Below are positions 5,057 to 60,275 of a stretch of 64,000 nt of DNA, one piece after another. The translations under genes were made by a program, and so were the position numbers. Origin of the DNA: Peptococcaceae bacterium CEB3. Its GTDB lineage: Bacteria > Bacillota > Desulfitobacteriia > Desulfitobacteriales > Desulfitobacteriaceae. Below the pieces are notes generated by a model, which was not told where the DNA came from, ran no database searches, and saw only the letters and a list, made by a program, of their open reading frames with translations. The stretch covers positions 1 through 64,000 of the forward strand of contig LDXJ01000047.1 of the NCBI GenBank assembly GCA_001029295.1, given 5' to 3'. Positions within the stretch are counted from its first letter, which is position 1; each line of letters begins with the position of its first letter.

Positions 5057-5881
5057 TCACTTCCTTATTTCCTGCCACATGAAAACATTTTGGTCAAGAT
5101 GGAGTGTTTCAAGCCGATATCTTAAGGTTTCAAAAGGTTTAGGATTGTAATAAACCGGATACAGCAAATCCGTCTGTTCGTCAATCACTCCCTGCTCCTT
5201 GGCTATCTGCTCAATCGGCGTGCCGGGTAGAATCCGGATGTTATTCAAAACGACAGTGCCCAGATCTTTTTTAGGACTGTGTAGCTCATAGAGCCTGTCC
5301 AGAAGACTGATTCCTTTTTCAATGGTTCTTTTAGATTCTCCAGGAACGTTTACCATAAAATGATAGACACTCAATACATCGGTACGGGCGGTCAGACGGG
5401 CAGCTCTTAAAATGTCCGCTTCCACGAGGTGTTTGCGCAGTACATCCAGGGAGTCCATTGAAGAAAGGAGAGCCGGGAAAGATGTTTCCGCCTCTCCAAC
5501 AATCCCGTAATCAATCTCTGGCAGCTCCTGCAAAAGACGTTTCGGAAAAAGAGAAAATCCGGTTCCTCCGACAATCAGCCTGGCGTGAGGCCAAACCGCA
5601 GCAATCAGGCGAACGGTGACCACAAACGGCGGAATCAGCGAGCTGGTTTTGTTGGCTAGGGGATCGATATTGCGTAAGGAGAGCCCTACGACACCGGGTT
5701 GGAAGGTTAAAAGCTTCTCCTTTAGAGCTGCAAACGGATCCTGGGCCAGATTCATGTCCAGAATCTCAACCACGTGACCATAACCCTTGAGGACACTGGC
5801 AAGAGTAACGATGCCAATAGGATAAACTTTCTCCTGAGAAATCCCTTCAACCGAAGGGGTCTGGATCATTAAAACACGCAT
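5057..5881 (-). pseudogene. bzaD: BzaD-like B12-radical SAM protein lacking its radical SAM core
   Basis: The frame is open for 274 codons but the protein is about 170 residues shorter than its family. Residues 1-135 are a cobalamin-binding domain (YPIGIVTLASVLKGYGHVVE, then IDYGIVGEAETSFPALL). The sequence then jumps at about SSMDSLDVLRKH straight to the C-terminal part of a radical SAM barrel (FMVNVPGESKRTIEKGI). No CX3CX2C cluster exists anywhere, so no 4Fe-4S cluster for SAM cleavage can form. The likely cause is an in-frame internal deletion. It sits 9 bases downstream of bzaC and 9 bases upstream of bzaE. A ribosome binding site (GGAG) precedes the ATG. Probably non-functional as a methylase. 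A retained cobalamin-binding role cannot be excluded. Confidence 0.7.
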
Positions 5882-5890
5882 AATTTCATT

Positions 5891-7432
5891 TCACTCCAAT
5901 AGCAGCAAGGCAAAATACCTGACATAGTCGCCTTGCTGAGATAACGTTCTGAGGCTAAGCCCCGCTCGCCGCACAGTTTCATAGACATCAATACCCGCTC
6001 CCTCCATGGAGGGTCGGGCATCTCGCGTATTGCAGCATATCCCCTCCGTCGAGCAGGTCTCACAGAGGGCACAGGGTCCCGCCCAGTAGGCAAAAGCTTT
6101 GTAAAAACCAGCCTTAAAGGCTTGTTTCTCCGCCAACAAGACCTGGCGTTGGAAGCTCCTGGCCGGTGGCTCTCCTTCCAAAAGCGCTGCCAGGGTATAG
6201 TCTTGCAGTACCTCTCGAGTTTTTTGAGGGGAGGGACTGTTGGGCGGACAGTGAGGTTTCCCATAACGGTCACAGCCATATTGGCAACGAAGATCCGCCC
6301 AATTCGGGACATGAATGCGCATCGTGGGAACCAACACAACCTCTTTGAATCCCAAAGTCTTAATCCTGGCTTGCAAAAGGGCCTTGGCATCAAGACGGAG
6401 ACTTTCAAGGTTTTCGATCTTCTGAGCGGCAAAAATGACAGCCGTGTCTGTCGTCAGCGGCAGAAGCTCTGTCGTGGTGAGTCTTTGGCGGGCCAGTTCT
6501 TCCCGGACCCAGGTTTCGGAAAAAACTATCCCATTATAGGTATGGATGAACATGTTTAAGTCAAACAGACCGGCTTTTTCCGGATGGTGTTCAGAAAAGA
6601 AATCATGGACCAGTATAACTCCATCCGGTTTAAGACATCTGGCCGCTCTCTCCAGAACCGTCGGAATCTCGTCTTGTGAATAAGCATGCAGGATATTGGA
6701 AAGGATGACCAGATCAAAGCCTTCCTGAGCAAGAGGCCAAGGCTCTAAAATATTGGCTGGACAATAGGTCAAACGTTCCCCAAATCCTCGCTCGTCCATT
6801 ATCTCCCGTGTGTAGTCCAGCACGTGAGGCAGGTCAAGAAGTGTTGCCGTCAGTGCAGGAAAATGCTCCAGAAAACCGCCGGCCATGGCACCGGAACCCG
6901 CCCCGACATCGAGAATCTTCCCGGAAAGGGGTAGCCCCTCAAAAAAAGGAAGAATCTCGATAACCTTAATCTGAGCCACATTGTCCATCGCCTTGATATA
7001 TTTCCGCACACGACGGGCTAATAGTTCGGGATCTTCCTCTGGCGGACCATAGTAGGTCCTTTCGCCTGCCGCCAGGCTTTTAGCTAGATGTTGCCATCCG
7101 GTTTTGAGATACTTGCGCCACAGGATAGAGTCTCCCTGGTAATGGTTCTTACCTGTAACAAGATACTCACTGGCCAGTTTCGTGTTAAAATAGCGGGTCC
7201 CATTCCCAGTCAGTAACCCTAGGGCGCAGAGGGCTTGGAGAAACCGCTCCAGTCCCCTTTGGGCAACAGGCAGAGTGTTGACCAGCTCGAAAACGGTTTT
7301 TCCGCTCAGGTCGAGCTTGTCGAAAATTTCAAGTTCGACAGCCGTAAACAGAGTTTCGGAAAGCCAATACCCCGTGGCGAGGTCTTCCAAGTACTGAGGC
7401 CCGGCCTCCTGGGGATTATAATGAAATGTCAT
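5891..7432 (-). CDS. bzaC: BzaC-like SAM-dependent O-methyltransferase fused to a DUF2284 domain
   Basis: 513 residues, intact. Residues 1-90 resemble the dimerisation/winged-helix domain of plant-type O-methyltransferases. Residues about 160-330 are the methyltransferase fold with the SAM loop ILDVGAGSGAMAGGF. Residues about 355-513 match the DUF2284 putative metal-binding family, with cysteines in RCQYGCDRYGKPHCPPN and a cluster GPCALCETCSTEGICC. In the anaerobic benzimidazole pathway BzaC methylates the hydroxyl of 5-hydroxybenzimidazole to the methoxy form. The DUF2284 part suggests a bound metal or Fe-S cofactor of unknown role. The ATG overlaps the stop of the degraded cobT as ATGA, so the two were translationally coupled. 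The assignment depends on the operon context. By sequence alone it is a generic O-methyltransferase. Confidence 0.7.
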   Translation of the reverse strand: MTFHYNPQEAGPQYLEDLATGYWLSETLFTAVELEIFDKLDLSGKTVFELVNTLPVAQRGLERFLQALCALGLLTGNGTRYFNTKLASEYLVTGKNHYQGDSILWRKYLKTGWQHLAKSLAAGERTYYGPPEEDPELLARRVRKYIKAMDNVAQIKVIEILPFFEGLPLSGKILDVGAGSGAMAGGFLEHFPALTATLLDLPHVLDYTREIMDERGFGERLTYCPANILEPWPLAQEGFDLVILSNILHAYSQDEIPTVLERAARCLKPDGVILVHDFFSEHHPEKAGLFDLNMFIHTYNGIVFSETWVREELARQRLTTTELLPLTTDTAVIFAAQKIENLESLRLDAKALLQARIKTLGFKEVVLVPTMRIHVPNWADLRCQYGCDRYGKPHCPPNSPSPQKTREVLQDYTLAALLEGEPPARSFQRQVLLAEKQAFKAGFYKAFAYWAGPCALCETCSTEGICCNTRDARPSMEGAGIDVYETVRRAGLSLRTLSQQGDYVRYFALLLLE

Positions 7433-7757
7433 TCTCTCTTCACTCCAGACTCATCTCGGGTAACGCCGGCGTCCTCAAAGGTAAGCATTTTACCCATCCG
7501 TGGGTTACTTCCTGTGGAAAAGCACTTACTCCCTCGGCCACAACTCCATGGTTTCCCGCCATGGTCACGACAGTTTTTTCCTTCACAGACGGTTTGAGGG
7601 TCCGTTTGATCGCGGCCAACTGTTCCGCTAGGTTCAGGAGTTCCCCCAAACTTCCCCGGGGAATGGCTAAGTTGTTCAGGTGGTTTCTGGCCTTCAAGCG
7701 CCATTCACCGCTGACAGGCTTGATTCCGTGGATTGTTTCTGCTAAAGTCAACTCCAT
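7429..7757 (-). pseudogene. cobT: cobT remnant with large internal deletion
   Basis: CobT transfers phosphoribose from nicotinate mononucleotide to the benzimidazole lower ligand and is normally about 350 residues. Here the first about 95 residues are recognisable (KPRGSLG-type start region AIPRGSLGELLNLAEQLAAI, then VVTMAGNHGVVAEGVSAFPQEVT). The sequence then jumps to what looks like the C-terminal tail (MLTFEDAGVTRDESG) in another frame, which ends at 7429 in an ATGA overlap with bzaC. About 230 residues, including the catalytic glutamate region, are missing and the join is out of frame. ATG 7757 follows GGAGAGG by 9 bases. It cannot encode an active enzyme. Confidence 0.8.
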
Positions 7758-7796
7758 TTTTTGAAACCTCTCCAGCAATTATTTACGATCGCCCTG

Positions 7797-8700
7797 TTAC
7801 GAAACAATTCCATAATACTTGACCGCAACCTGGGCGGCGCAATCCGGTCCGCATACCGCACACGAGTGGTCGAGCGGCTTTAGTTTTTTCCGGATCCACG
7901 AAAAAGCTGATCTGGCGATCGATATCCAGGGCTACCCGGGCCCGCGCCATTTGCCTGTCTTTCTCCCAGGCTTCTTTGTTTGCCCGGGCAAGGTCTGCAG
8001 CATGCGCGGCAATCCGGGCTGCGGTCACCCGTTCTTTGACATCCTCTTCCGTCGGCAAGCCCAGACGCTCGGCCGAAGTCACATAACAGAGGAAGTCGGC
8101 ACCGGCTGCGCAGGCGAGAGCCCCACCAATGGCAGAAGTGATACGATTATAGCCCGGCGCTACATCGGTGGCAAGTGTACCGAGAATAAAGTAAGGCGCA
8201 CCGTTGCATAAACGTTCTGCATCTGGATCGTTGTTTCCACATGATGCTGACCACATTAGTAACCCTTCCGCTTCCCTGCAGCCGTTTGACAACATCCAAA
8301 TTGTAAGCACTATGAATGTCATGAAGTCCACACCATCCGCGGCTTGTTTTTCGATCGTCTCAAACATATCCTCAGCGGTCATCGCCACGATGCTGCCCCG
8401 GTTTTCTATCGCTCCGATAGCTGCCTGGTAAATCGGCACACTGCCAATGGCAATATTCGCCTTTTCGAGGCTAAAACGCCTCATGCCATCCACATTTCCA
8501 CCTGTGCTCAGATCCATTAAAGCATCGCACCCTGCTTCTTCAACAAAGGCCGGTTTCCGTTTTTCCGTGGACACGTCGTCCCGGTTACTGGCCGTGCCGA
8601 TTAACGCATTAACCTTGATCCGCAAGCCTTGTCCGATACCGCAGTAATTAAACTCTTTTCGGTTCACATTGTGGGGAATCACAATCTTGCCGGAGGCTAA
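7797..8700 (-). pseudogene. bzaB: BzaB/BzaF-type (ThiC-like) hydroxybenzimidazole synthase, truncated and frameshifted
   Basis: The frame carries strong ThiC-superfamily features: IVIPHNVNRKEFNYCGIGQG, KVNALIGTASNRDDVSTE, and GADFLCYVTSAERLGLP. BzaA/B/F proteins are ThiC paralogues that turn aminoimidazole ribotide into 5-hydroxybenzimidazole by radical SAM chemistry. The N-terminus is cut by an IS remnant near 8700, losing about 25 residues and the promoter. Near 7880 the reading frame is lost: the main frame runs on to a nonsense tail, while the next frame encodes the expected C-terminal cluster SCAVCGPDCAAQVAVKYYG and stops at 7797. The frameshift therefore separates the enzyme from its 4Fe-4S ligands. 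It is followed by cobT, as in known bza operons. Whether it derives from bzaB or the single-gene version bzaF cannot be settled here. Confidence 0.8.
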
Positions 8701-9080
8701 AAAAACCGTATTGCGCGTCAGCCAGAAAAGCCTCATGGCCGAAAATACTCGTTTAATCCTGATGGATAAAAAGGACCGAAGCGAAAACGGTAGTAAACGG
8801 GCCGCTTATTGAAGGAACCAATTCCGCGTTTAAGCGGGCGCATGGAGCTGGGAAACTTAAAGTTAGAGGTTTAGTACGCTGTAGTTTGGTCATGGGCTTG
8901 AAAACAATCGCTCATAGCTTCCATCAGATCGTTCGTTTGTTCCAGGGCGACCCTCGTCAAAAGTGCACAAAAAATGGAGACATACACCAAGGGATACTTG
9001 CGACCATTTAGAGAAATGACGGGTTGGAGACAAGAAATACCTCCTCGCACAAGGAAAATAGCGCTAGCACTGAAATCAAA
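8701..9080 (+). mobile_element. 3'-end remnant of the IS1182-type element
   Basis: From about 8704 this stretch is nearly identical to 3017-3378 of the complete copy, covering the last about 100 codons of the transposase and the non-coding end. It has an extra base in the GCTTATTGAAGG segment (GCTATCGAAGG in the intact copy), so the frame is broken. After AAAATAGCGCTA it jumps to GCACTGAAATC, the outer part of the right terminal repeat, so an internal piece of the end is also gone. The 5' two-thirds of the element is missing, together with the front of the bza operon. Confidence 0.85.
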
Positions 9081-9081
9081 C

Positions 9082-9846
9082 TTAAATACCATTATATTTT
9101 TTCCTAATCTCTAACCAGCTCTTACCCGTAAGAGCATCTACTGCCATTGGTGGAGCCTGGGCCGCATCCGTGCCATAAATTCCGTATTGGAAACTGTTTA
9201 CAAAGTCCGCAGTGACTCCACCACCGCCACCACAAACAAACGGTAATTCCAAACCCCGATAGCTTAACTCGTGCGAGATTCGTTCAAATGCGTTCATCGT
9301 CAAAGTTAGCCCAGCCGTTCCTGTTAACATGACCGGATGATATTTTTCCACTGCCGCCACGACCTCTTCAACTGGTACATCTTTACCAAGATCTATTACT
9401 TGGAAACCACTAGCACTTAACAAAGCATTAACAATTTTCTGACCTAGGTCATGCAGATCTCCCTCAGCAGTATGGGTAACAACCACTGCTTTTTTCCAAC
9501 CAGAATGACCCATCTTCGCTTCGCAAATTTCCAGACCAATCTGCATGGTATCGGAAGCAGCTAATGTCTGGGGAAGATAGTAAATCCGTTCTTCCCAGAG
9601 ATGACCAACCTTTTCCATGCCATTGATCAGTCCTTGCTCGATCACTTCTAGTGGCGGGTACTGTTTTAATGCTTCATTGACAACTTCCGAAATGTTTTCA
9701 CACTCCCCGGCTACTACTGTGTTTATAACGTCTTGTAAGGTACTCCGTGGTAATTTGGCATCACTTTTCGTCGGCGTAAAATCCCTATGCAAAGTATTTA
9801 AGTCGTAACGAATAAATACTTTTGAAGACTCTGGATATGGTCTCAC
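9082..9846 (-). CDS. mtaC: Methanol-type corrinoid protein, second MtaC
   Basis: 254 residues, close in sequence to the MtaC at 14067. The N-terminal helical cap (about 40-115, LINGMEKVGHLWEERIYYLPQ) is followed by a B12-binding domain with the D-x-H-x-x-G cobalt-ligand motif GDLHDLGQ (His132) and a glycine-rich nucleotide-tail site near CGGGGGV. It should carry the methyl group between a substrate methyltransferase and a second methyltransferase. It lies downstream of the sigma-54 activator on the same strand, separated by 188 bases, and has no partner MtaB beside it. The region after its stop is IS remnant, so a former neighbour may have been lost. The start ATG at 9846 is preceded by AGGTGAG. 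Confidence 0.85.
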   Translation of the reverse strand: MRPYPESSKVFIRYDLNTLHRDFTPTKSDAKLPRSTLQDVINTVVAGECENISEVVNEALKQYPPLEVIEQGLINGMEKVGHLWEERIYYLPQTLAASDTMQIGLEICEAKMGHSGWKKAVVVTHTAEGDLHDLGQKIVNALLSASGFQVIDLGKDVPVEEVVAAVEKYHPVMLTGTAGLTLTMNAFERISHELSYRGLELPFVCGGGGGVTADFVNSFQYGIYGTDAAQAPPMAVDALTGKSWLEIRKKYNGI

Positions 9847-10034: not shown

Positions 10035-11969
10035 CTAGTTTTGGCGTAATTTTCGGTATAAAGTATTACGGCCTATACCCAAGATCTTGGCAGCATGGCT
10101 AACATTACCATTACACATGGTCAAAGTTTCACGAATCAGGTTGGCTTCATGTTGCCGCAAAACCATTCCCTGACCAGGATTAAGGAGTTTCAGCCGTTGA
10201 CTGGTTATTCGCTCTGGTAGATGTTGAGGCAACAAGAGACCACTCTCTGCCAAAAAGAGGGATTGTTCAACCACATTTTCCAGCTCTCTTACATTCCCTG
10301 GCCAATCATAGTTTTCCAAAGCAGCATAATATTCCTGTGAAACTTCTAAATTGCTTAGCCCAAGTCTTTTGCCTTTTGTCTCCACAAGGTAATTAGTTAA
10401 GGTACTAATATCACCCCTGCGCTGTCGCAAACTGGGTATTGTTAAGGAAATTACGTTCAGCCTGTAAAAAAGATCTAATCTAAAGTTCCCCCTCTCCACC
10501 TCTTTGGCTAGGTCTTTATGCGTAGCTGAGATAACCCTGGTATTGATCGGGATAGTGCGTTCACCGCCAATTCTGGTAACTCGTCTTTCCTGCAAAACCC
10601 TCAATAAGCTAGCCTGTATTTCGAGCGGCATGTCCCCAATTTCATCCAGAAAGATGGTTCCACCACTGCATAACTCAAATTTACCTGGACGTCCGCCACG
10701 ACGTGCCCCAGTAAAGGACCCTTCCTCATACCCAAAAAGCTCACTTTCGACCAGCTCCCTGGGGATAGCGGCGCAGTTAATAACCACAAAAGGTCCGTTT
10801 TTGCGGGCACTGAAATTGTGGATAGCTTGGGCAAAAAGTTCTTTACCTGTTCCGCTTTCCCCTTCTAGTAAGACCGTACTCCCGCTTCGCGCAACTCTTT
10901 TAGCTCTACTAATTATGCCGAGCAGCTTATCATCTGAACCGATGATATCGTCGAATGTTAAGCTTGCTTCAGCGCCGACAATACTGTTCACCAGTTTGTG
11001 AACAGTATTGATCCCCCGTAAAGTGGCTATAACACCATCAGCTGAACCATCAGCAGTGATAAAAGGTTTGCCGTTCATGGTAAACCTACGACGGTCACGA
11101 CCATTTTCCCAAACCACCTCCCGTTCGGCGATAATCCGACCATTCTTTAAGACATCCAAAAGAAGAAAGTTTTCTCCAAAAACTTCTTTGGCCAAGTGAC
11201 CAAGACAATTTTCCGGGTTAAGACCAAGGATTTTGCCGCCAACAGAATTTAAATTTATAATTAAACCTTCTCTGTTAATGTGAATTAGGCCTTCAGACAT
11301 GGTTTCTATAATTGTTTTGACATGATCATAAGCTAGCGCCAGCTCACTGACTGCATTATTATACAATGATTGATTTTCAATGGCCCGAACTGCCGCTACC
11401 ACCATCCCTAGACTGTGCGGATGATAGTCCTCGTAAATACCAAATAGTGCTAGTACCCCTAACAATTCTTTGGTTGGTCCCAAAAAAGGCGCTGCCGCCC
11501 CGGTTAAATCATGAAAGACACGGCAGTAGTGCTCAGTTGCGAAAACCTCTAAAGGTTTTTTTTCAATGAGCGCCAGACCTATGGCATTGGTGCCCATTGA
11601 GATTTCGCTCCAATCTACTCCTACAACCAAACCCCGGTGTTTTACCTTTTGCTTCACTACCGGATCACCCAAAACCTCTACCAGCACTCCGAGGTTGTCA
11701 GCTAAAACAACCAAGAAGTTAGAACCCCTTATAAAGTTATACAAATGATGCATAAAAGGTTTACTAAGCGTAATGAGTCCTTGCTGTTGATCAGCAAATA
11801 TTTCTCGCTGATTAAGTAATTGACTAACTTGAGCATAAGGATTAAGCTGTCGTTCCCAACAGCGTTGCCATGAATTCGCTACTGTTTCTCCTACAACATA
11901 GGGTTCTATTTCAGAGATTTCAATAAATTGGGACCAAGCCTTTTTAATTCTTTCTGCTTTTTGCCTCAT
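10035..11969 (-). CDS. Sigma-54-dependent transcriptional activator (AcoR/GAF-PAS type)
   Basis: 644 residues. Order: N-terminal region typical of AcoR-type activators (VANSWQRCWER), GAF-like domain (about 75-200), PAS domain (about 225-310), AAA+ sigma-54 interaction domain (Walker A GESGTGKE, the sigma-54 contact loop as GSFTGA, Walker B GTIFLDEIGD) and a C-terminal Fis-type helix-turn-helix (NVSHAAKILGIGRNTLYRKL). It is divergent from mtaB, whose promoter has -24/-12 elements and upstream palindromes, so control of the methanol genes is the obvious role. The GAF or PAS domain probably senses a small ligand, perhaps methanol, a corrinoid state or a folate-level signal (inference). GSFTGA in place of GAFTGA is a natural variant seen in other activators. 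Confidence 0.92.
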   Translation of the reverse strand: MRQKAERIKKAWSQFIEISEIEPYVVGETVANSWQRCWERQLNPYAQVSQLLNQREIFADQQQGLITLSKPFMHHLYNFIRGSNFLVVLADNLGVLVEVLGDPVVKQKVKHRGLVVGVDWSEISMGTNAIGLALIEKKPLEVFATEHYCRVFHDLTGAAAPFLGPTKELLGVLALFGIYEDYHPHSLGMVVAAVRAIENQSLYNNAVSELALAYDHVKTIIETMSEGLIHINREGLIINLNSVGGKILGLNPENCLGHLAKEVFGENFLLLDVLKNGRIIAEREVVWENGRDRRRFTMNGKPFITADGSADGVIATLRGINTVHKLVNSIVGAEASLTFDDIIGSDDKLLGIISRAKRVARSGSTVLLEGESGTGKELFAQAIHNFSARKNGPFVVINCAAIPRELVESELFGYEEGSFTGARRGGRPGKFELCSGGTIFLDEIGDMPLEIQASLLRVLQERRVTRIGGERTIPINTRVISATHKDLAKEVERGNFRLDLFYRLNVISLTIPSLRQRRGDISTLTNYLVETKGKRLGLSNLEVSQEYYAALENYDWPGNVRELENVVEQSLFLAESGLLLPQHLPERITSQRLKLLNPGQGMVLRQHEANLIRETLTMCNGNVSHAAKILGIGRNTLYRKLRQN

Positions 11970-12386
11970 TTTGACACACCGCTCTTGTTTAAAAATCAGT
12001 ACTCGATCCTAATAGAGTCAGGCTACAGAATAAGATAACAGCAGATCTACTTGTAATATTTAATATTTAAAAGATAGTTACTTTTCTGTCCATTAATGAA
12101 ACGGGGGCACGAGCACTGCAATGTTGTTACATTAACGCAACAGTATTCACCGGGGTAAAAAAGGATATGACCTATCCGGACACGTGTAATGAATTAGGAC
12201 AGATCCAGTGTTCGGAAGGCATTTTGAAGTGTACGATGGGTTTGATACAGCATTTATTGTACTGGCTTCGCGCATTTTAGTCAAGGGCATTGATTAATTA
12301 GTAGCCGAAGATAAGTCAGAAGCAAAAGTTTGTCCGGTTTTGGTCGCGTAAACAGCACCAAATTGTGGTGTTCCAATATGGATAGA
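11970..12386. other. Long divergent intergenic region, no gene assigned
   Basis: It holds the unplaced promoter of the sigma-54 activator. An inverted repeat TGTTG...CAACA occurs near 12122-12142. Around 12210-12352 a plus-strand frame reads without obvious noise (FGRHFEVYDGFDTAFIVL...) but contains stops and no start, so it may be a decayed gene fragment. I do not recognise it. Confidence 0.4.
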
Positions 12387-12403
12387 TGTTCTATATTAGA
12401 ACA
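12387..12403. promoter_or_regulatory. Upstream activator site 1 (perfect 17-bp palindrome)
   Basis: TGTTCTATATTAGAACA is a perfect palindrome about 135 bases before the -24/-12 promoter of mtaB. It shares the arms TGTTC/GAACA and the overall 17-bp length with site 2. It is the likely binding site of the divergent sigma-54 activator. Confidence 0.6.
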
Positions 12404-12451
12404 GTTGTGACAAACATAGACTAGTCAGGCGATTAGGTGGGGATTTGTTGA

Positions 12452-12476
12452 AGGGTGTTCCATCGCGGAACACCCT
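12452..12476. promoter_or_regulatory. Upstream activator site 2 (palindrome with 10-bp arms)
   Basis: Arms AGGGTGTTCC and GGAACACCCT flank a 5-base centre. The core TGTTCC-N5-GGAACA matches site 1 in spacing. It lies about 60 bases upstream of the -24 element, a typical position for an enhancer bound by a sigma-54 activator. Confidence 0.65.
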
Positions 12477-12535
12477 GTGATTTTTGCACTAAGGCTAGGA
12501 CATGATTTACAATGAGTTCAGTCAATTTAGAGTAT

Positions 12536-12551
12536 TGGCACATAATTTGCA
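12536..12551 (+). promoter_or_regulatory. Sigma-54 (-24/-12) promoter of the mtaB operon
   Basis: TGGCACATAATTTGCA matches the consensus TGGCAC-N5-TTGCA exactly, including the invariant GG and GC with correct spacing. It lies 114 bases before the mtaB start codon and downstream of two palindromes. This makes the operon dependent on RpoN and an activator ATPase. Confidence 0.88.
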
Positions 12552-12664: not shown

Positions 12665-14038
12665 ATGCCAAGGTATGACAAAATGGCTTATGCCAGTGCA
12701 AGCGAATTGATATTCGGTTCTGCCAAATATCCGGTAACCTATGGACGGGATTTTTCGGTTGGCGCAGGTTATGTTTATCCTGAATTAGTTCCCCACCCGC
12801 GGCCGGGCAGTGAAAAATCGCAAAAGTCACTTGTTAAGGAATATGAGAAAATGGTGGTTGACGTTCTTGACCGCTGTGTCGCCATTGGAATTCCGGGCAT
12901 TCAAATTGAGCTCGAACACGTGTATCAGATGACTAAGAACCCGGAGTGGGGTGGTGAAATTGCCGCCCAAACAAAGCGGCTGATGGAGGATTATTATCGT
13001 AAGTATGGATTAAAAAGCGCCATTCGGGCGACAATCGCCGACTATCGCAAACCCGATGAAGAAAAAGTCTGGGACTCCGATGCCCTGAAAGTTATGCTTC
13101 AAGCTTTTGAAGCGAGTGCAGCCGGTGGAGCGGATAACATCTCTATCGAGAGCGTCGGCGGAAAAGAAGTCACCGATTACACGATCGTCCGTCAGGATAT
13201 CCGCGGTGTGTTGTTTGGCATCGGTGTCTTAGGTAGCTTGGATATGGAACACATGTGGTCAAAAATTGTCGGGATTGCCAACAAATATGGAGTTACCCCA
13301 GGCGGAGATACCAACTGTGCCCAGGCCAATGTAGCCATGTTCATGGCGGGCGGTTATCAAGACCGATCCGTACCCCATACTTTTGCCGCATTGACACGGG
13401 CAATTGCAGCACCACGCTCCCTAGTTGCGTATGAACAGGGGGCTAAAGGACCGAGCAAAGACTGCAGTTATGAAGATCCCATTATTAAGGCCATCAGCGG
13501 TGTGCCAATCGCGATGGAAGGAAAAACCTGCGCCTGTGCGCACAGTGACTTATTAGGTAACTTGGTTATGGCCTGCTGTGACCTGTGGAGCAACGAGGCG
13601 GTGGAATACCATGACATGTTCGGAGGAACTACAGCGGCTGTATTTACCGAAATTCTTGGCTATGATGTGGCCTTGATGAACTCGGCGATTGAATTGGGTA
13701 AGGCTAAAGATTTACAAGAGATGATGGTTGCCTCCGATAAATATCGGGATATGCACGGGTTTATTTTGGCCCCGGACAACGCTTATAAGATTGGTCAGGC
13801 CATCGTGTCCAATCCCCAATCCTATTATGCTCGGGCCAGGGCGGCCGCCGTCAAGGCCGGCGAACTTATGCAACAAGATAGCATGTTGCTCATGTCTTCC
13901 TTCGAACGGGAAGCCCTTAATTCTGCTATGCGGACGCTGGAGACCTTGCCTGACAAAGAGGATGACTTTATTGCCGAGTGTGTCGAAATATACAAGAAAC
14001 AAGTCAAAGGTTTCGAACCGAAGAATTACGGGCTGTAA
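12665..14038 (+). CDS. mtaB: Methanol:corrinoid methyltransferase MtaB
   Basis: 457 residues, the usual MtaB length. MtaB splits the C-O bond of methanol using zinc and passes the methyl to Co(I) of MtaC. The zinc ligands of the Methanosarcina barkeri enzyme (Glu164, Cys220, Cys269) line up here as Glu162 (NISIESVGG), Cys218 (GGDTNCAQAN) and Cys267 (SKDCSYED), all with an offset of two. The conserved start KMAY...FGSAKYPV and GAGYVYPE are present. GAGGAG lies 8 bases before the ATG. First gene of an operon with mtaC 28 bases downstream. Driven by the sigma-54 promoter at 12536. High similarity to the methanol-specific family makes methanol the best substrate guess. Related enzymes for other small methyl compounds exist. 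Confidence 0.95.
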   Translation: MPRYDKMAYASASELIFGSAKYPVTYGRDFSVGAGYVYPELVPHPRPGSEKSQKSLVKEYEKMVVDVLDRCVAIGIPGIQIELEHVYQMTKNPEWGGEIAAQTKRLMEDYYRKYGLKSAIRATIADYRKPDEEKVWDSDALKVMLQAFEASAAGGADNISIESVGGKEVTDYTIVRQDIRGVLFGIGVLGSLDMEHMWSKIVGIANKYGVTPGGDTNCAQANVAMFMAGGYQDRSVPHTFAALTRAIAAPRSLVAYEQGAKGPSKDCSYEDPIIKAISGVPIAMEGKTCACAHSDLLGNLVMACCDLWSNEAVEYHDMFGGTTAAVFTEILGYDVALMNSAIELGKAKDLQEMMVASDKYRDMHGFILAPDNAYKIGQAIVSNPQSYYARARAAAVKAGELMQQDSMLLMSSFEREALNSAMRTLETLPDKEDDFIAECVEIYKKQVKGFEPKNYGL

Positions 14039-14066
14039 CGGCTCGGGATAAGGAGGGATGAATAGG

Positions 14067-14819
14067 ATGAGTACTGCCTTAGAGAGTTATGCTAGAATTT
14101 TGATACGATATGATTTGGTTGGGGCTGCTGAAGTTCGGGAAATTAAAGCAACCGCCAAGGATTCAACTCTGCAGGAAATTATGCAGTGTGTCATTGATGG
14201 TGACTCCGATGCGATTGGATCGTTAGTTAAAAATGCTTTAAAGACAATGGATCCTATGAAGGTGATTAATGAGGCATTGATCAAAGGAATGGGTGAGGTC
14301 AGTCGTCTGTGGGCCGAAGGTACTTATTACTTGCCCCAAGTCATGGTAGCCTCTGATGCGATGTTGGAAGGAATTGACCTTTGTGAAGCGAGACTGGGTA
14401 AGAAAATGGAGAAGAAAGGGGTTGTGGTCACCCATACGGCCGAGGGCGATATCCATGATTTAGGGCAAAAAATTGTTAATGCTCTCCTAAGAGCAAACGG
14501 TTATGAAGTTGTGGACCTTGGCAAAGATGTGCCGGTAGATGATGTGGTGGCGGCAGTCAAAAAATATGAGCCATTGATGGTCACGGGTACAGCTCTGATG
14601 ACCACCACCATGACCGCCTTTGAGAAGATTTCCAACCGGTTGAGTGCCGCGAACATCAACATACCCTTCGTATGTGGTGGTGGCGCAGTCTCTAATGAAT
14701 ACGTAACCAGCTATAAGTATGGGGTATTTGGTAAGGATGCCCAGCAAGCCCCGCAGATGGTGACCGACATATCAGATGGGGCTAGTTGGCAGGACCTACG
14801 GGAGCGGTATAACAATTAA
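14067..14819 (+). CDS. mtaC: Methanol corrinoid protein MtaC
   Basis: 250 residues. The N-terminal helical domain (about 35-110) precedes a cobalamin-binding domain with the motif GDIHDLGQ, where His130 should be the lower cobalt ligand. A glycine-rich segment FVCGGGAVS near residue 212 fits the nucleotide loop. It accepts the methyl from MtaB and donates it to a second methyltransferase. An upstream ATG at 14058 directly abuts the AAGGAGGG box, so ATG 14067, 9 bases after the box, is the better start. It is followed by a stable hairpin and then the G3E GTPase gene. Confidence 0.93.
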   Translation: MSTALESYARILIRYDLVGAAEVREIKATAKDSTLQEIMQCVIDGDSDAIGSLVKNALKTMDPMKVINEALIKGMGEVSRLWAEGTYYLPQVMVASDAMLEGIDLCEARLGKKMEKKGVVVTHTAEGDIHDLGQKIVNALLRANGYEVVDLGKDVPVDDVVAAVKKYEPLMVTGTALMTTTMTAFEKISNRLSAANINIPFVCGGGAVSNEYVTSYKYGVFGKDAQQAPQMVTDISDGASWQDLRERYNN

Positions 14820-14903: not shown

Positions 14904-15836
14904 GTGAAGGTTGAACTTGTCGGTGGTTTTCTCGGTGTCGGAAAAACAACCTTAATCAAAGGATTAATCGAACACTGGTCTGGCAGGGAAAAATTGGCTG
15001 TACTTGTTAACGAATTTGGTGAGGTCGGGATTGACGGGACTCTTCTGGCCGGGCGGGGAACGGAAGTAGTGGAATTAGCCAGCGGTTGTATTTGTTGTAC
15101 TCTTAACGCCGATTTAAAAGCCCAGGTTTCCGACATTGCCCTGACTTATCAGCCGGAGCACCTGTTAATTGAGCCAACGGGAATAGCCACAACTAAAAGC
15201 ATTCTGAATATTTTAGGAAGTTTAAGCCTGGAGAAGTTTATTACGGCTATTCGTGTGACTTTGCTTTTAGATGGCCTTTCTTATGGATCGGATTCAAGAT
15301 TATTTTCCTTCATCGACAGTCAGATTGCTTTAGCCGACCTAGTTGTGTTAAACAAAAGCGACCTGGTTCTGCCGCAAGTGATTAGTGAAATAAGACATCG
15401 AGTCGCAAGTATTAATCCCCAGGCCAAGATTATTCAAGCTAAATACGGACGAGAAGCTATCGAAGCCATGGTGAATGATGACCGTGAACCTGTAGATGTC
15501 AAAACTATGCCGAATGCGAATGAGGATGATACAATCCTGTTTACAGACTACCAATCCCTAGGCGTGACATGGCAAGGCGTTGTGACGCAGGAACGGTTAC
15601 TGAAGCTGTTTGACAAGTTCAAGGACCGCGACTTAGGAGAGATTATGCGGGCCAAAGGATTCTTCTTAACTGATGAGGATAGGTGGATAGTTCTGGATTT
15701 TGTGCAGGGACAGATTTATCAAGAGTGGTCGGAGGGGAAGAGTTATAGCGAAAGTCGACTGACGGTTATCGGGAAGGAATTAAGACGAGATTTGATTGAT
15801 ACAGCTATTGAGGCATGTCGGCTGATAGAGGGGTGA
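14904..15836 (+). CDS. G3E-family (CobW-like) GTPase
   Basis: 310 residues. P-loop GGFLGVGKTT at residues 8-17, the metal-binding CXCC motif in SGCICCTL, GTPase specificity motif NKSDL, and a C-terminal CobW_C-like domain. G3E GTPases insert metals or cofactors into client proteins (UreG, HypB, MeaB, CobW, zinc chaperones). Its place directly after mtaBC suggests loading of zinc into MtaB or handling of the corrinoid of MtaC (inference). The GTG start has CGGAGG 7 bases upstream. A broken paralogue lies at 26047. It overlaps no neighbour but the next gene starts 10 bases after it. Confidence 0.85.
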   Translation: MKVELVGGFLGVGKTTLIKGLIEHWSGREKLAVLVNEFGEVGIDGTLLAGRGTEVVELASGCICCTLNADLKAQVSDIALTYQPEHLLIEPTGIATTKSILNILGSLSLEKFITAIRVTLLLDGLSYGSDSRLFSFIDSQIALADLVVLNKSDLVLPQVISEIRHRVASINPQAKIIQAKYGREAIEAMVNDDREPVDVKTMPNANEDDTILFTDYQSLGVTWQGVVTQERLLKLFDKFKDRDLGEIMRAKGFFLTDEDRWIVLDFVQGQIYQEWSEGKSYSESRLTVIGKELRRDLIDTAIEACRLIEG

Positions 15837-15846: not shown

Positions 15847-17475
15847 ATGAAAAAACTTGGAGTTGCTCTTGACTTAGGGACGAGCGGGCTACGCGGGCAG
15901 GTCATCGACCTTGACACGGGACAGATTCTTAAAACAGCGATCACGGCTCGGCATCCTCTACCTGGAGCTAACGTGATGGATCATCTAAATTATGTAATTG
16001 ATGCCGGCATGAATACAGCCCATCGCATTCTCTTGGATGCCGTTAATCAGGTTTTGGATGCATTGGGTGCGTGTGGTCCAGAAATGGCGCGTCTTGCGGT
16101 CTGTGGTAATCCAATCCAGCTTTCGCTGTTCGAAGGGATTGAGGTAAGGGATCTGGCCTATGCCGGTAAAAGGAAAAAGGAGGCTATGGGAATTACGGCA
16201 CCCGACAGGAACGGCAGATTGGTCTTGGCGGGTCGGATTGAAGGACTTAACATTCCGGCAACCGCCGAAGTAGTTATTCCACCGGCCGTTGCCCATGAGA
16301 TTGGTGCCGATGCCTTAGCAATGATGCTGAAGTCCGGGATGTTGGAACGGCAGGAAATGGCTCTAGTAACCGATTATGGTACCAATGCCGAGATGGCATT
16401 AAAGATTGGCGGGCACATCATTACAGGTTCCTGTGCAGCCGGACCCGCATTGGAGGGGCAGCATATCCAGTCCGGTATGCTGGCGGGACCGGGGGCCATT
16501 TCCGACATTAACCCAAGCGGCAAAAATTACACAGTCTCAGTATTGAATCACAGTATGCTCAGTGAAACGGTCGTGGAATCCGATCTAATTACCGGGATAG
16601 CCCAACGGGTGACTGCCGGTAGTATCAAAGGAATTACTGGTACTGGAGTGATTGCGCTAATTGACCAGGCGAATAGTAGTGGTTATATTCAGCTCCCTGG
16701 CATTAAGACAAGTGACCACCTTTTACATCTCACCGATGATGTTAGGTTTAGTGAAAAGGACTTGAGCGAGGCCGGAAAAGCAATTGGCGCTATCAGAGCG
16801 GGGTATATCGCTTTAAGTAAGGCTGCTGGTATTGAGGTTGAGCAGATCGAGGTAGCGTACATGGCAGGGGCGTCGGGAACCTATGTTGATGCGATTAAAG
16901 CGCAACGGATTGGTTTGGTACCTCCCTCTGTGAGAAAAGTCTACCAGATCGGGAATACTTCGCTGGCTTTAGCCGGGGATTTAGTCCTGAAGCCGGAAGG
17001 ACTTGAGGAACTGAAAAAGTTAGCCGTCAGCTTACGTGCCACCCACTGCATGTTTGGTGATTACGAACCGTTCTCGCAAGCTTATCTATTGGAACTTGCC
17101 TATTGGGATGAAGGGATGCCGCGTGACTTATATCTACGTTTTAGTCGCAAACAAGGCTTGTCTCCGCTTCCAGAGTTTAGCCAGAAGGCTGAAGTGGTGA
17201 AATGGCACAAGCGGGACATTCCTGAACTGGGTACGTATGGTCTAACGGTGATCGAAAGGGTTGGCTTAGAGCGTCGCCACGCGTTCTCAGGATGTTTAGG
17301 TTGTGGAGTCTGTACAACTGTGTGCCCAGAAAAAGCATTGTCGTTAGAGGCGTCGGACAAAGAGGGATTTTGTCTCCTCTTACGGTTTGACCTTTGTAAT
17401 GGTACCGCCTGCCTGCGCTGCGAACGGGCTTGCCCTGTAAAAGTTTATCGCTTTGCGGATTTAGGTGTGAACTAA
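15847..17475 (+). CDS. RamA-like corrinoid reductive activator (ASKHA ATPase with C-terminal ferredoxin)
   Basis: 542 residues. An actin-like ATPase fold of the DUF4445/RACo group begins at residue 5 (VALDLGTSGLRGQVIDL), with further motifs DYGTNAEMAL, GSCAAGPALEGQ and AYMAGASGTYV. The C-terminal about 70 residues contain two 4Fe-4S ferredoxin motifs: CLGCGVCTTVCP and CNGTACLRCERACP. This layout is that of RamA of methanogens, which uses ATP to reduce Co(II) corrinoid proteins back to active Co(I). Most bacterial activators (RACo) have an N-terminal 2Fe-2S domain instead, as in the gene at 19533. The likely clients are the MtaC proteins. The ribosome binding site is weak. Confidence 0.85.
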   Translation: MKKLGVALDLGTSGLRGQVIDLDTGQILKTAITARHPLPGANVMDHLNYVIDAGMNTAHRILLDAVNQVLDALGACGPEMARLAVCGNPIQLSLFEGIEVRDLAYAGKRKKEAMGITAPDRNGRLVLAGRIEGLNIPATAEVVIPPAVAHEIGADALAMMLKSGMLERQEMALVTDYGTNAEMALKIGGHIITGSCAAGPALEGQHIQSGMLAGPGAISDINPSGKNYTVSVLNHSMLSETVVESDLITGIAQRVTAGSIKGITGTGVIALIDQANSSGYIQLPGIKTSDHLLHLTDDVRFSEKDLSEAGKAIGAIRAGYIALSKAAGIEVEQIEVAYMAGASGTYVDAIKAQRIGLVPPSVRKVYQIGNTSLALAGDLVLKPEGLEELKKLAVSLRATHCMFGDYEPFSQAYLLELAYWDEGMPRDLYLRFSRKQGLSPLPEFSQKAEVVKWHKRDIPELGTYGLTVIERVGLERRHAFSGCLGCGVCTTVCPEKALSLEASDKEGFCLLLRFDLCNGTACLRCERACPVKVYRFADLGVN

Positions 17476-17572: not shown

Positions 17573-18595
17573 ATGCATACAATGACTAGTCGCGAAAGAT
17601 TCATGGCGGCCTTAAACGGTCAATCGGTAGATCGGTTGCCAGTGATCAGTGTCTGTCAGCACGCAACTTATGACCAGATGGAACAACTGAATAGTGCCTG
17701 GCCCGATGCCTTTCATGATGCAAAACTAATGGCGAAATTGGCTAGTGGAGGGCAGTCAATCCTTGGTTTTGATGCTGTAAGAGTTCCATTCTGCCAGACT
17801 CATGAAGCGGAGGCTTTTGGGGCCGTATTAAAATATGGTGGTAAATTAGGGTTACCCAGCGTTGATATACATCCGTATCATATTGGTGATACAATCGATT
17901 TCCCGGCTGATTTTCTAAGCAAAGGGCGTATACCGGCGTTACTGGAAGCTATCCGGATCCTAAAACGTGATGTGGGTGACCAAGTTATTGTGATGGGAGG
18001 TATTATTGGCGCGTTCAGCATTGCCAGTTTGTTGTTTGGTGTTACGGATTATCTCAAGGCAAGTTTCAAGAAACCTAGCGATCTCGTTCCTTATATTGAG
18101 TTATGTGAACGTGCCGGCACCACTTTGGCCAAAGCAATGATCGAAGCTGGCGCAGATGTGATTGTTGTGGAGGACATGGTGGCTTCGATGGATATGATTA
18201 GTCCTAAGATCTACCGTACCTTGGCGTGGGAATACGAAAAGGACCAGGTTGAAGCGCTGAGTGTGCCAACGATCATCCATATCTGCGGCAAGACGGATCC
18301 TATTATTGTAGACATTGCGAAAACCGGCTGTGCGGCCATTAGTGTTGAGACCACGGTAAACATCCCGAAAGCGTTGGAGAACCTCCAATCCGAAGGGCTC
18401 ACAACCCCGTTAATTGGGGGGGTCGACCCTGTGAAAACCCTGTTCACAGGTCAACCGGAAGACGTTAAATATGAAGTCAGAAATGCGATTGCTGAAGGAT
18501 TATCCATGATTTCTCCCGGATGTTCCGTACCACCGGCTACAAGAACAGCCAACTTAAGGGCAATGGTTGATACGGCTAAAGAGTATCAAGCTTAG
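17573..18595 (+). CDS. MtaA/CmuA-type methyltransferase (uroporphyrinogen decarboxylase fold)
   Basis: 340 residues with the UroD fold. The zinc site of methylcobamide methyltransferases is conserved: His236 and Cys238 in IIHICGKTD and Cys317 in SPGCSVPP, matching His237, Cys239 and Cys316 of Methanosarcina MtaA. Such proteins either take the methyl off a methylated corrinoid or act as substrate-specific demethylases. Bacteria lack coenzyme M in this role, so the acceptor here may be tetrahydrofolate or a thiol, or the protein may be a first-step enzyme for another methyl donor. GGGGGG lies 9 bases before the ATG. Confidence 0.85.
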   Translation: MHTMTSRERFMAALNGQSVDRLPVISVCQHATYDQMEQLNSAWPDAFHDAKLMAKLASGGQSILGFDAVRVPFCQTHEAEAFGAVLKYGGKLGLPSVDIHPYHIGDTIDFPADFLSKGRIPALLEAIRILKRDVGDQVIVMGGIIGAFSIASLLFGVTDYLKASFKKPSDLVPYIELCERAGTTLAKAMIEAGADVIVVEDMVASMDMISPKIYRTLAWEYEKDQVEALSVPTIIHICGKTDPIIVDIAKTGCAAISVETTVNIPKALENLQSEGLTTPLIGGVDPVKTLFTGQPEDVKYEVRNAIAEGLSMISPGCSVPPATRTANLRAMVDTAKEYQA

Positions 18596-18808: not shown

Positions 18809-19459
18809 ATGTCCCAAGCAATTCTTGATCAACTCAAAGAAGGAGTTGTCAACTACGACGAGGAGGCGGTCATAACCGCGGCCAATGAAGCCTTAGCCCA
18901 AGAAATGGATGCTCATTCGGCAATTTTCGACGGTCTGGTACCGGGCATGGTTGAAGTAGGTCGCCTGTACGAAGAGCAAGAGTATTTTGTCCCGGAAATG
19001 CTAATGTGCGCAGACGCCATGTATGCCGGTCTGAACATTCTGAAACCCCACATGAAGAAGAAAGAGGGGTCCGCGAATGGGGTAGTTGTGATGGGCGTTG
19101 TCCAGGGCGATGTCCATGATATTGGCAAGAATATCGTACGCATGATGTTCGATGCGTCTGGCTTCGAGGTTCATGACCTCGGACGGGACGTGCCTCTGGA
19201 CAAGTTTGTTGAAGAACAACTGAAGACCGATTCTAATCTGGTTTGTCTGTCGGCTATGATGACCACGACTATGGTAGGTATGAAAGAAATAATCGAGAAA
19301 ATCAAGGAAAAGAATCCCAAGTGTAAGATAATGATCGGCGGAGCCCCAGTGACCGAGGATATTGCATCGCGTTGGGGTGCGGATGGGTACGCCCGTGATG
19401 CCAACAACGCGCTGAAAGACGCCATCAATATGATCAGTTCTCTGAAAAGCATTTCGTAA
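18809..19459 (+). CDS. Corrinoid protein (MttC/MtgC-type methyl carrier)
   Basis: 216 residues. N-terminal cap domain with the family pattern IFDGLVPGMVEVGRLYEEQEYFVPEMLMCADAM (about 39-71), then a B12-binding domain with GDVHDIGKN, where His103 would bind cobalt. It belongs to the group serving methylamine, glycine betaine and O-demethylase systems rather than the methanol-specific MtaC group. The ribosome binding site GAAGGAG lies 10 bases before the ATG. It opens a second gene set with the activator at 19533, the MtaA-like gene at 21726 and the MtrH-like gene at 22854. Confidence 0.9.
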   Translation: MSQAILDQLKEGVVNYDEEAVITAANEALAQEMDAHSAIFDGLVPGMVEVGRLYEEQEYFVPEMLMCADAMYAGLNILKPHMKKKEGSANGVVVMGVVQGDVHDIGKNIVRMMFDASGFEVHDLGRDVPLDKFVEEQLKTDSNLVCLSAMMTTTMVGMKEIIEKIKEKNPKCKIMIGGAPVTEDIASRWGADGYARDANNALKDAINMISSLKSIS

Positions 19460-19532
19460 TCAAGATTTCAGGCGATTGGTTCAAGATTGCTGAAATATAA
19501 GAACTTCAAGCATATCTGAAGGAGGGAAAGCA

Positions 19533-21506
19533 TTGGAATACAACGTCATTTTCCAACCATCTGGCAGGCGAGGCAAAGTCACAGGCGGCAAAACAATCTT
19601 GCAGGCGTCCCACGATCTTGGTGTCGATATCGAATCGGTTTGTGGAGCATCCAAGGTTTGCGGTAAATGCAAAGTGAAGATTGAAGAGGGTTATTTCCAA
19701 AAGTTTGGTATTGAGTCTCGTGTTAGTCATCTCAGCCCACTGACCAGCCAGGAAGAGAAATATATGGAGTCCAAGGAAATCAAAGAGAATTACCGCTTTG
19801 CCTGTGCCACGGAAATTCATGGAGATATCTTAGTCTTCGTGCCAGAAGAAAGTCGGGGCGCGCAGCAAATCGTGCTGGAGACAGGGAAGGAACGGGTCTT
19901 CATCATAGACCCGGCCGTGCGCAAATACTATGTCGAGTTAGACCCTGCAACCTTGGAAGACCACAGAGGTGACTTTGAGCGACTCTGTATGGGCTTGCGT
20001 GCCAAATATCCACAACTTCCGGAGAACCTAGCCATTGACTACTTTTTGCTACAGAAATTGCCACCAGTTTTACGGAGCGAGAAGTGGAAAGTTACTGTCA
20101 CCATCTGGCAGAGTCGAGAGATAATTAATGTCGAGGCAGGCTTTAATGAAAAAATTGTCGGAGTAGGCATCGATATCGGCACTACCACTCTCGCAGCTTA
20201 CTTATGTGACTTGCGTACGGGCAAAGTATTGAGTAAGAAATCAATGATGAACCCCCAGGTGCGGTACGGCGAAGACGTACTCTCAAGGATTAGCTATGCG
20301 ATGATGGAAGATAACGGTTTAGAAAAAATGCACAACACGATCATCGAAAGTATTAACATCCTGATCGGGAAAATGACCGCAGAAGTGGGCCTGATACCGC
20401 AGGATTTACAGGAAGTTGTGCTAGTTTTCAATACAGTCATGCACCACATCGCCTTAAACATCGATCCCAAGTTCATGGGCCGTTCTCCCTTCGCCCCCGC
20501 GATAAAGCATTCCTTGGATATCAAGGCCAGGGATCTAAAAATAGAGGTCAATCCCAGTGCTAACGTTCACGTCCTGCCGATCGAAGCCGGCTTCGTCGGA
20601 GCAGACAACGTGGCGGTTCTGATTGCCGAGGAGCCTTACAATCAAGAAGAAATGCGCTTAATTATCGACATAGGAACTAACGGAGAAATTGATGTTGGTA
20701 ATAAGAACCAAATGCTCTCCACCTCCTGTGCCACCGGTCCAGCCCTAGAGGGAGCCCAGATAAAGTTCGGAATGCGGGCCGCACCAGGCGCTATCGAATG
20801 CATCCAGATCGACACCGAGACGTTGGAACCACGCTACAAAGTTATCGGTAGCGATGTCTGGTACCCGGAGAATAGAAATCCTGGAGCCAAAGGACTTTGC
20901 GGTTCAGGCATTATCGACGCGATCGCAGAACTGTTTAAAGCTGGCATCATCGGAACGAGCGGTCGCTTTAACGGAGGTATGGAGGCTTTCCCGCGTGTCC
21001 GCAAAGGGGCAGATGGAAAAATGGAATATGTCATCTGTTGGGCATCCGAAACCTCGATTGACCAGGACATTTCCATCACCATCTCCGACGTGCGGGCTGT
21101 CCAGTTAGCCAAGTCCGCCCTCTACGTGGGGGCAAAATATCTGATGGAGAAACTGGGAATCGAAAAAATAGACAGTGTTACTCTAGCTGGGGCATTTGGT
21201 TCATATATCAACCGCGAAAGCGCATTGCTAATCGGTATGTTTCCGGATTGTAATCTGGAAAGGGTCACAGCGGTCGGCAACGCAGCAGGAGACGGAGCGC
21301 AGATCGCTCTTCTTAATAAGGAAAAACGCGTTGAAGCAGATCGGGTTGCCCGAGAAGTTTATTTTGTCGAAACTGCAGTAGAATCAGATTTTCAAAAGCG
21401 TTTTTCCGACGCTATGGCTTTCCCACACAGCCATGACCTCTTCCCGAGCATCCAGCATATCCTAGATCAAATTCCTAAGCGGGGGAAACGGCTAACCGCC
21501 CGCTGA
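19533..21506 (+). CDS. RACo-type reductive activator of corrinoid proteins
   Basis: 657 residues. Residues 1-95 are a plant-type 2Fe-2S ferredoxin with Cys37, Cys43, Cys46 and Cys91 (VCGASKVCGKC and FACATE). A linker and middle domain follow, then an ASKHA ATPase (VGVGIDIGTTTLAAYLCDL near 205, LIIDIGTNGEIDVG, SCATGPALEGAQI, LAGAFGSYIN). RACo proteins couple ATP hydrolysis to reduction of inactive Co(II). The TTG start is preceded by AAGGAGG with 7-base spacing. It follows the corrinoid protein gene by 73 bases and probably serves it. Length is normal for the family. Confidence 0.92.
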   Translation: MEYNVIFQPSGRRGKVTGGKTILQASHDLGVDIESVCGASKVCGKCKVKIEEGYFQKFGIESRVSHLSPLTSQEEKYMESKEIKENYRFACATEIHGDILVFVPEESRGAQQIVLETGKERVFIIDPAVRKYYVELDPATLEDHRGDFERLCMGLRAKYPQLPENLAIDYFLLQKLPPVLRSEKWKVTVTIWQSREIINVEAGFNEKIVGVGIDIGTTTLAAYLCDLRTGKVLSKKSMMNPQVRYGEDVLSRISYAMMEDNGLEKMHNTIIESINILIGKMTAEVGLIPQDLQEVVLVFNTVMHHIALNIDPKFMGRSPFAPAIKHSLDIKARDLKIEVNPSANVHVLPIEAGFVGADNVAVLIAEEPYNQEEMRLIIDIGTNGEIDVGNKNQMLSTSCATGPALEGAQIKFGMRAAPGAIECIQIDTETLEPRYKVIGSDVWYPENRNPGAKGLCGSGIIDAIAELFKAGIIGTSGRFNGGMEAFPRVRKGADGKMEYVICWASETSIDQDISITISDVRAVQLAKSALYVGAKYLMEKLGIEKIDSVTLAGAFGSYINRESALLIGMFPDCNLERVTAVGNAAGDGAQIALLNKEKRVEADRVAREVYFVETAVESDFQKRFSDAMAFPHSHDLFPSIQHILDQIPKRGKRLTAR

Positions 21507-21725
21507 AATCTAGACATCACAAGTTAAAAACCAAGGATTTGGTATTTAGGAATTGTTAATTCGCGCGATTTCGAACTAACTAAACCCTGAAAGCATGTAT
21601 CACAAATTAGGTATCATCTGCAATGCCGAAAATACCAATGTCAATAAGAAAAAGGAAAATTTAGCATGATTGATGCAAAAAAGAAAGACGTACTGATAAG
21701 GGATAGTAATAAGGAGAGATGTGTA

Positions 21726-22781: not shown

Positions 22782-22853
22782 AGTTCTCTAAATACAGTGG
22801 AAAGACCCTGCGGTACCTAATAAGCCCAACGAAAATTGTGGATGGTGATAAAA

Positions 22854-31657: not shown

Positions 31658-31912
31658 TTAACGCCTGGAACGATGACCGAAGATAAAATGATAAAGGTCA
31701 AAGCGGAAGAGAAGTTTGAGCAAGAAATGTGCCACAATAACGACAAGGGCAATGAAGGCGACCACTTTGACGATGGCAAAAACAAGCGCAAGGAGCCAGA
31801 AAAAGACTTTGCCCAAAACAAAAATAGACAGGAGGAGCGCAACGATCAAGATACAGATTTTCAGCGCCGTTATCCAGTAGTTAGAAGGCTCGGTTGAGCG
31901 GTACGCGTTCAC
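31658..31912 (-). CDS. Small membrane protein of unknown function
   Basis: 84 residues, largely hydrophobic: two long segments (ICILIVALLLSIFVLGKVFF and VAFIALVVIVAHFLLKLLF) end in a basic tail GHRSRR. The GTG start is preceded by GAGGAGGTG at 7 bases and the gene ends before a strong terminator, so it is a real transcription unit. No family recognised. Confidence 0.7.
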   Translation of the reverse strand: MNAYRSTEPSNYWITALKICILIVALLLSIFVLGKVFFWLLALVFAIVKVVAFIALVVIVAHFLLKLLFRFDLYHFIFGHRSRR

Positions 31913-49378: not shown

Positions 49379-49417
49379 CGAAGCGGAAAAAAGGTGATAG
49401 ATTGTGCTTGACAAATT

Positions 49418-49572: not shown

Positions 49573-49619
49573 AAAGGCTGGGCAAGTCGGGGTTGGCCTT
49601 TCGAAGGCTGATTTTTTTT
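49573..49619 (+). terminator. M-box expression platform: terminator and competing antiterminator
   Basis: GCCTT-TCG-AAGGC (49596-49608) precedes a run of eight T. AAAGGC at 49573 can pair with GCCTTT at 49596 instead, which would break the terminator. This fits Mg2+-induced termination. Confidence 0.7.
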
Positions 49620-59908: not shown

Positions 59909-59968
59909 TTCGGCTGACCACCTGTTCTCTTTTTGAGGTTTCTAAGCACAATTTAGCATAACGGAGTG

Positions 59969-60189: not shown

Positions 60190-60275
60190 ATGTATTGAGA
60201 AATGGGGCGCCGCACCGGTTTCTTAACCCTCTGGCGGCAGGCTCCGGTGATGAGAAGCAAAATGGGGGGGGAAAC

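Follow-up and report, generated by a model that had tools for sequence, protein, structure and literature searches.

Predicted sigma-54 control of the mta methanol operon of Peptococcaceae bacterium CEB3 by a DhaR-like activator through TGTTCC-N5-GGAACA palindromes

The methanol (mta) operon of Peptococcaceae bacterium CEB3 is likely, with a probability of roughly 0.87 as judged from sequence comparison, to be under sigma-54 control exerted by a divergently encoded enhancer-binding activator, provisionally named MtaR, through palindromic TGTTCC-N5-GGAACA sites. The operon lies in positions 1 to 64,000 of contig LDXJ01000047.1 (forward strand; assembly GCA_001029295.1), and this whole stretch of 64,000 nucleotides is referred to here as the window. 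In the proposed mechanism, sigma-54 RNA polymerase would transcribe mtaB, mtaC, a cobW-like gene, ramA and mtaA from a promoter at 12535-12551, with a start near 12562. The DhaR/AcoR-like MtaR would bind the palindromes, which number three (a tandem pair and a single site, two of them strong in the window), and, looping the DNA and hydrolysing ATP, would open the promoter when methanol is usable. What was seen or computed is that the sites exist, are rare and occur together with the activator and mtaB across lineages; from this we infer the binding, the looping and methanol as the inducing condition.

The first gene of the operon, mtaB (12665-14038, plus strand), encodes a methanol:corrinoid methyltransferase (PF12176, 710 bits). 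Against the NCBIfam model of methanogen MtaB the protein scores 718.6 bits, 1.4 bits short of the cut-off of 720, so methanol as its substrate is to be read as a strong family assignment from sequence and not as proof. The genes that follow on the same strand are mtaC (14058-14819), for the catalytic corrinoid protein as recognized by domain and family profiles and by its place in the tree; a gene conserved in the operon for a CobW/HypB/UreG-type GTPase (14904-15836); ramA (15847-17475), for the reductive activator of the corrinoid protein (TIGR04270, above cut-off); and mtaA (17573-18595), for the second methyltransferase (TIGR01463, above cut-off). The same enzymes are represented by MtaBC of Methanosarcina and mtaABC of acetogens, and MtaB and MtaC of the window fall in families built on methanogen proteins. 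After mtaA, the stretch 18809-23831 (plus strand) encodes a further corrinoid protein, an AcsV-like activator, a second MtaA-like protein and an MtrH/MtgA-type methyltransferase; the cluster including this stretch may handle more than one methyl donor.

The predicted sigma-54 promoter of the operon (TTGGCACATAATTTGCA, 12535-12551, plus strand; predicted transcription start about 12562) is located 130 bp before mtaB. A consensus -24/-12 promoter had been claimed in a preliminary description of this DNA, and the match is indeed exact over the TGGCAYRN4TTGC core; the TGGC-N8-TGC element, with GG and GC at their fixed spacing, is present in it. The 5.3-Mb genome contains 29 copies of the strict 17-mer TTGGCAYRNNNNTTGCW (TTGGCAYRN4TTGCW) and none of the reversed-pattern control, and it encodes rpoN (PF04552, 197 bits, above cut-off). 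Relaxed scans of the window that allowed two mismatches gave no excess over shuffles for either the promoter or the palindrome pattern, so the weight is placed on exact matches only. Chance as the origin of the promoter and palindromes was rejected by the whole-genome counts and by an unbiased palindrome scan against shuffles. A riboswitch or cobalamin leader before mtaB was rejected too: an Rfam scan of the window detected no riboswitch at the mta control region, and its sole matches, a tRNA and an M-box, are situated elsewhere. The M-box (magnesium) riboswitch is found at 49412-49578 (plus strand, 142 bits).

Exact TGTTC-N7-GAACA has two matches only in the window, at 12387-12403 and 12456-12472 (17 bp each), which bears out the two palindromes with TGTTC/GAACA arms described earlier. 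The first candidate enhancer site, TGTTCTATATTAGAACA (12387-12403, plus strand), is centred at about -167, and the second, at about -98, has the core TGTTCCATCGCGGAACA (12456-12472) inside a perfect repeat with 10-bp arms that spans 12452-12476 (AGGGTGTTCCATCGCGGAACACCCT, plus strand). The positions of -85 and -150 once assigned to them hold as distances to the -12 element (-86 and -155) and do not hold when counted from the predicted start. The only two matches to TGTTCYN5RGAACA in the 5.3-Mb genome are these palindromes, which lie 69 bp apart; the reversed control has none. A degenerate distal copy, TGTTCCAATATGGATAG (12369-12385, plus strand; 9 of 12 arm positions), stands 18 bp before the site at 12387-12403. 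Scored by itself it does not exceed control windows or chance, and it is counted as a candidate site because the 18-bp tandem spacing recurs in the related loci L013, L014, L073 and L094.

The repeat at 12452-12476 also scores as a terminator-like hairpin and weak sigma-70-like hexamers lie nearby, as would be expected if it were a terminator or attenuator and the operon were driven by an ordinary sigma-70 promoter. This explanation is considered highly improbable, since the hairpin has no plus-strand gene ahead of it to terminate and precedes the predicted start, its arms carry the conserved TGTTCC motif, no Rfam riboswitch coincides with it, and the sigma-70-like matches number 3, about what shuffles give (1.9 expected).

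The putative activator MtaR (10035-11969, minus strand) contains GAF, PAS, Sigma54_activat and HTH_8 domains according to Pfam; the AAA+ domain matches PF00158 with 230 bits, and the HTH_8 match, a Fis-type helix-turn-helix (HTH), is at the C-terminus. In the alignment of the activators, the Walker A motif GxSGTGKE is invariant, and the loop of the sigma-54 interaction domain, present in all 13, reads GSFTGA in the window and GAFTGA in the 12 orthologues. No receiver domain was found in MtaR by Pfam, and thus there is no sign of two-component control. NtrC-type enhancer sites, TGCACC-N5-GGTGCA, resemble the mta palindromes in their 17-bp length, 6-bp arms, 5-bp spacer and Fis-type HTH; the mta unit differs from them in its arms, TGTTCC/GGAACA, and in an activator in which that receiver domain is not seen.

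The MtaR orthologues form their own clade among the enhancer-binding proteins (EBPs; SH-aLRT 97), and MtaR scores below the cut-offs of all the named NCBIfam equivalogs shown, including PrdR and DhaR (NF008485; 396.9 bits, cut-off 551). The sensor half (27-320) superposes on DhaR(N) of Escherichia coli (Z 27.3, rmsd 2.3, 286/291 residues, 20% identity); its best structural matches are the DhaR-DhaL and DhaR-DhaK complexes, and phmmer matches it to DhaR with E 1e-13. Because the AAA+ domain is poorly modelled (much of 381-500 has pLDDT 27-60), interpretation of the structure is limited to the sensor half. The preliminary description was right about a divergent sigma-54 activator, but its term 'AcoR-type' is loose: the GAF-PAS-AAA+-HTH layout is that of AcoR, the adjacent motif-bearing target is mtaB and not aco, and the nearest solved structure, by sequence as well as by fold, is DhaR.

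Organisms with an MtaB relative of 66-91% identity include Desulfosporosinus sp. I2, Thermincola, Desulfotruncus, Desulfocucumis and Dethiobacter. The comparison comprised 13 loci with mtaB, an MtaR orthologue and the full upstream region, namely the window and 12 others. L078 was left out of the site comparison for its short upstream sequence, and MtaB homologues that are 36% identical, from other members of the family, were left out for their different neighbourhood (a second type of corrinoid protein upstream and a divergent CobW-like gene); the class of G062 is represented by one genome in the search. In the 12 other loci, the genes for the MtaR orthologue (47-57% identical) and for a spare MtaC-like corrinoid protein, MtaC', immediately precede mtaB in the same orientation, whereas in the window this pair is inverted and divergent from mtaB, which means that the two genes were kept together through rearrangement. 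In Desulfosporosinus sp. I2 (L081, contig G029:C134), an MtaR orthologue (81%) occupies the opposite end of the mta contig instead of a place upstream of mtaB, so gene order around the unit is labile within the family; a sigma-54-type site precedes mtaB there too.

Each of the 13 activator-bearing loci has a sigma-54-type site 130-212 bp before mtaB, with 0-3 mismatches over 13 fixed positions, and in each of them this site outscores all control segments of its own locus. Usually two to three TGTTCC-N5-GGAACA-like sites are also present before mtaB. At L010 and L012, which have an orthologous mtaB with no activator nearby, neither the sigma-54 promoter nor the palindromes were found. This co-occurrence with the activator in relatives, together with the absence from the two loci, supports the original suggestion of a sigma-54 unit for the methanol genes. 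It had been called a complete control unit, and comparison does tie the promoter, the palindromes and the activator together; the third site and the spare corrinoid gene had been missed.

The unbiased palindrome scan covered all 5-bp arms with spacers of 0-12 in 10 non-redundant upstream regions, and at its top were GTTCC/5 and TGTTC/7, which are nested and both equal to TGTTCC-N5-GGAACA. With one mismatch allowed, GTTCC/5 was present in 7 of the 10 loci, against a mean of 0.06 loci and a maximum of 1 in 200 shuffles, in which the best of all arms never rose above 6 loci. In the common layout, 17-25 bp separate the first two sites and a third follows after another 44-90 bp, the spacings being 18 and 69 bp in the window, 18 and 70 in L014, 18 and 67 in L013, 18 and 54 in L073, and 18 and 53 in L094. 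Two loci were examined after the motif had been fixed: L079 has sites at -336, -315 and -263 with the sigma-54 site at -169, and L094 has sites at -262, -244 and -191 with the sigma-54 site at -121. Counted against sigma-54 control by MtaR are the weak palindrome sites of L005, L009 and L015, the degenerate promoter of L015 (GTGGCACAAATATTGAT, in which the GC of the -12 element is lost), and the loop of the window protein, GSFTGA instead of GAFTGA.

The palindromes could be bound by a regulator other than MtaR: another sigma-54 activator, or a factor outside the sigma-54 class, such as GlnR/TnrA, that recognises a 17-bp TGT-N11-ACA site. The genome encodes dozens of further sigma-54 activators, which is counted against the attribution to MtaR, and the GlnR box, TGTNA-N7-TNACA, has the same geometry as the palindromes. 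Such a regulator is nevertheless judged improbable: across lineages the motif accompanies the MtaR gene and mtaB, and it is missing where MtaR is missing, the fifth arm base is C and not the A of the GlnR box, and a nitrogen regulator would be expected to have sites at several genomic places, whereas the exact pattern is found at the mta locus only.

Several known systems can be set beside the mta unit. In AcoR and the Clostridiales sigma-54 regulons (PMC6615313), a one-component activator likewise adjoins a single target operon, and several palindromes lie 100-250 bp before a TTGGCAT-N5-TTGCT promoter; unlike the mta unit, the groups in Table 1 of that paper are without methanol or corrinoid methyltransferase targets, and the word 'methanol' is absent from its text. 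Sigma-54 control of trimethylamine:corrinoid methyltransferase (MttB) genes was predicted in Clostridia (PMC12316311). That case shares with the mta unit a corrinoid methyltransferase gene under predicted sigma-54 control, but it concerns the MttB family and a genome-scale motif prediction, with methanol and mtaB unmentioned. For mtaACB of Moorella thermoacetica, the promoter proposed is ATCGAT-N12-ATTAAT and not of the -24/-12 type (PMC13391211). For Desulfotomaculum kuznetsovii and Moorella, induction of mta proteins or transcripts by methanol has been described, and a term search of these papers for a regulator gave no match.

The gene behind that of MtaR encodes MtaC' (9082-9846, minus strand), which has a pair of B12-binding domains and is separated from catalytic MtaC as a clade of 13 rows (support 96/93). 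It falls outside the MtaC group and lacks the CGGGAV loop of MtaC. An extra Gly206 (CGGGGGV vs CGGGAV), Leu180 (vs Met) and Gly210 (vs Ala) are found in 13/13 MtaC' and 0/17 MtaC proteins; these signature positions fall in the conserved loops of the B12-binding fold, as known for MetH-type domains. In each of the 78 genome pairs, MtaC' shows lower conservation than MtaC. A profile search of 398 genomes of the phylum was positive for MtaC' in 10, where each gene adjoins the activator and none occurs away from it; in all of these except the window's own genome it lies directly before mtaB. A general 'EBP plus corrinoid protein' arrangement was rejected, as 0/19 of the best EBP paralogues of the genome have an MtaC-like gene within 1.5 kb. 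Downstream of MtaC', at 5057-8736 (minus strand), there are BzaB-like and BzaD-like genes (B12 lower-ligand synthesis), which cover 317/426 and 274/438 family positions, respectively, in two matching stretches each, as if internally deleted.

DhaR of Escherichia coli/Klebsiella has the same GAF-PAS-AAA+-Fis layout and sensor fold as MtaR, and its gene also stands beside the controlled metabolic genes with homologues of enzyme subunits at hand; it differs in having kinase-subunit partners in place of a candidate corrinoid partner, and in its target. According to a passage of PMC5890353 that cites Bachler et al. (2005), binding of DhaL-ADP activates DhaR, whose activity is lost when DhaK is bound. 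Because the sensor half of MtaR has the DhaR fold and DhaR is switched by docked DhaL or DhaK, docking of MtaC' is proposed by analogy as a second layer of control, outside the probability given for the sigma-54 unit. MtaC' would be a dedicated corrinoid co-regulator and methanol sensor that docks on the GAF-PAS half of MtaR, passing on methyl acceptance or the state of its cobalt and so reporting methanol or the methylation/redox state of the metal. In its favour are the strict linkage of the MtaC' gene to that of the activator and the clade and signature of MtaC'. This proposal is tentative, and we would put it at somewhat less than even odds.

Similar odds are given to the explanation that the GAF-PAS half of MtaR itself detects methanol or a metabolite, the sigma-54 unit being right and MtaC' being a second catalytic corrinoid protein, e.g., a basal primer of the pathway. 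AcoR-type GAF-PAS activators bind small molecules and would be expected to have the same fold as the DhaR sensor, and that this fold is common to activators sensing small molecules is counted against docking. A catalytic role of MtaC' is favoured by the D-x-H-x-x-G motif, kept invariant together with the cobalt-ligand His132, and by its best structural match, MtaC in the MtaBC complex (2i2x). Against that role stand its separate clade, its own signature at the B12-binding loops, its lower conservation relative to MtaC and its constant place beside the activator.

If docking of MtaC' is true, methanol would be sensed via a look-alike of a pathway intermediate and not by binding methanol. Methanol is a very small, poorly distinctive molecule, and a spare B12 protein suggests sensing through methyl-transfer chemistry. 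The switching-on of corrinoid-dependent methanol use in anaerobic bacteria is little described in the open-access papers searched. Sigma-54 control by MtaR would provide a concrete regulator, motif and promoter for methanol use, conserved across lineages that include Desulfitobacteriaceae, Thermincola, Desulfotruncus and Dethiobacter, and the motif could guide the search for methanol-responsive operons in genomes that lack annotation. The regulon appears to be new and of a known kind, and the mode of sensing is possibly new, as judged from an open-access search in which silence is no proof of novelty.

Other sigma-54-related features were observed in the window and the genome. A weak second Sigma54_DBD match (G000:C13:9366-9587; 20.9 bits, below cut-off) has two in-frame stops and lies near an activator-like match and a strict sigma-54 site (9544-9560); it is perhaps a broken gene or a chance match. 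In the window, an exact TGGCAYRN4TTGC occurs at 31720-31734 (minus strand), about 360 bp before a sporulation-type polysaccharide deacetylase gene (30518-31363). A second sigma-54 unit is found at 58538-61181, where the strict site TTGGCACGGATTTTGCT (60173-60189) precedes a proline dehydrogenase match and a divergent sigma-54 activator is encoded beside it at 58538-59908.
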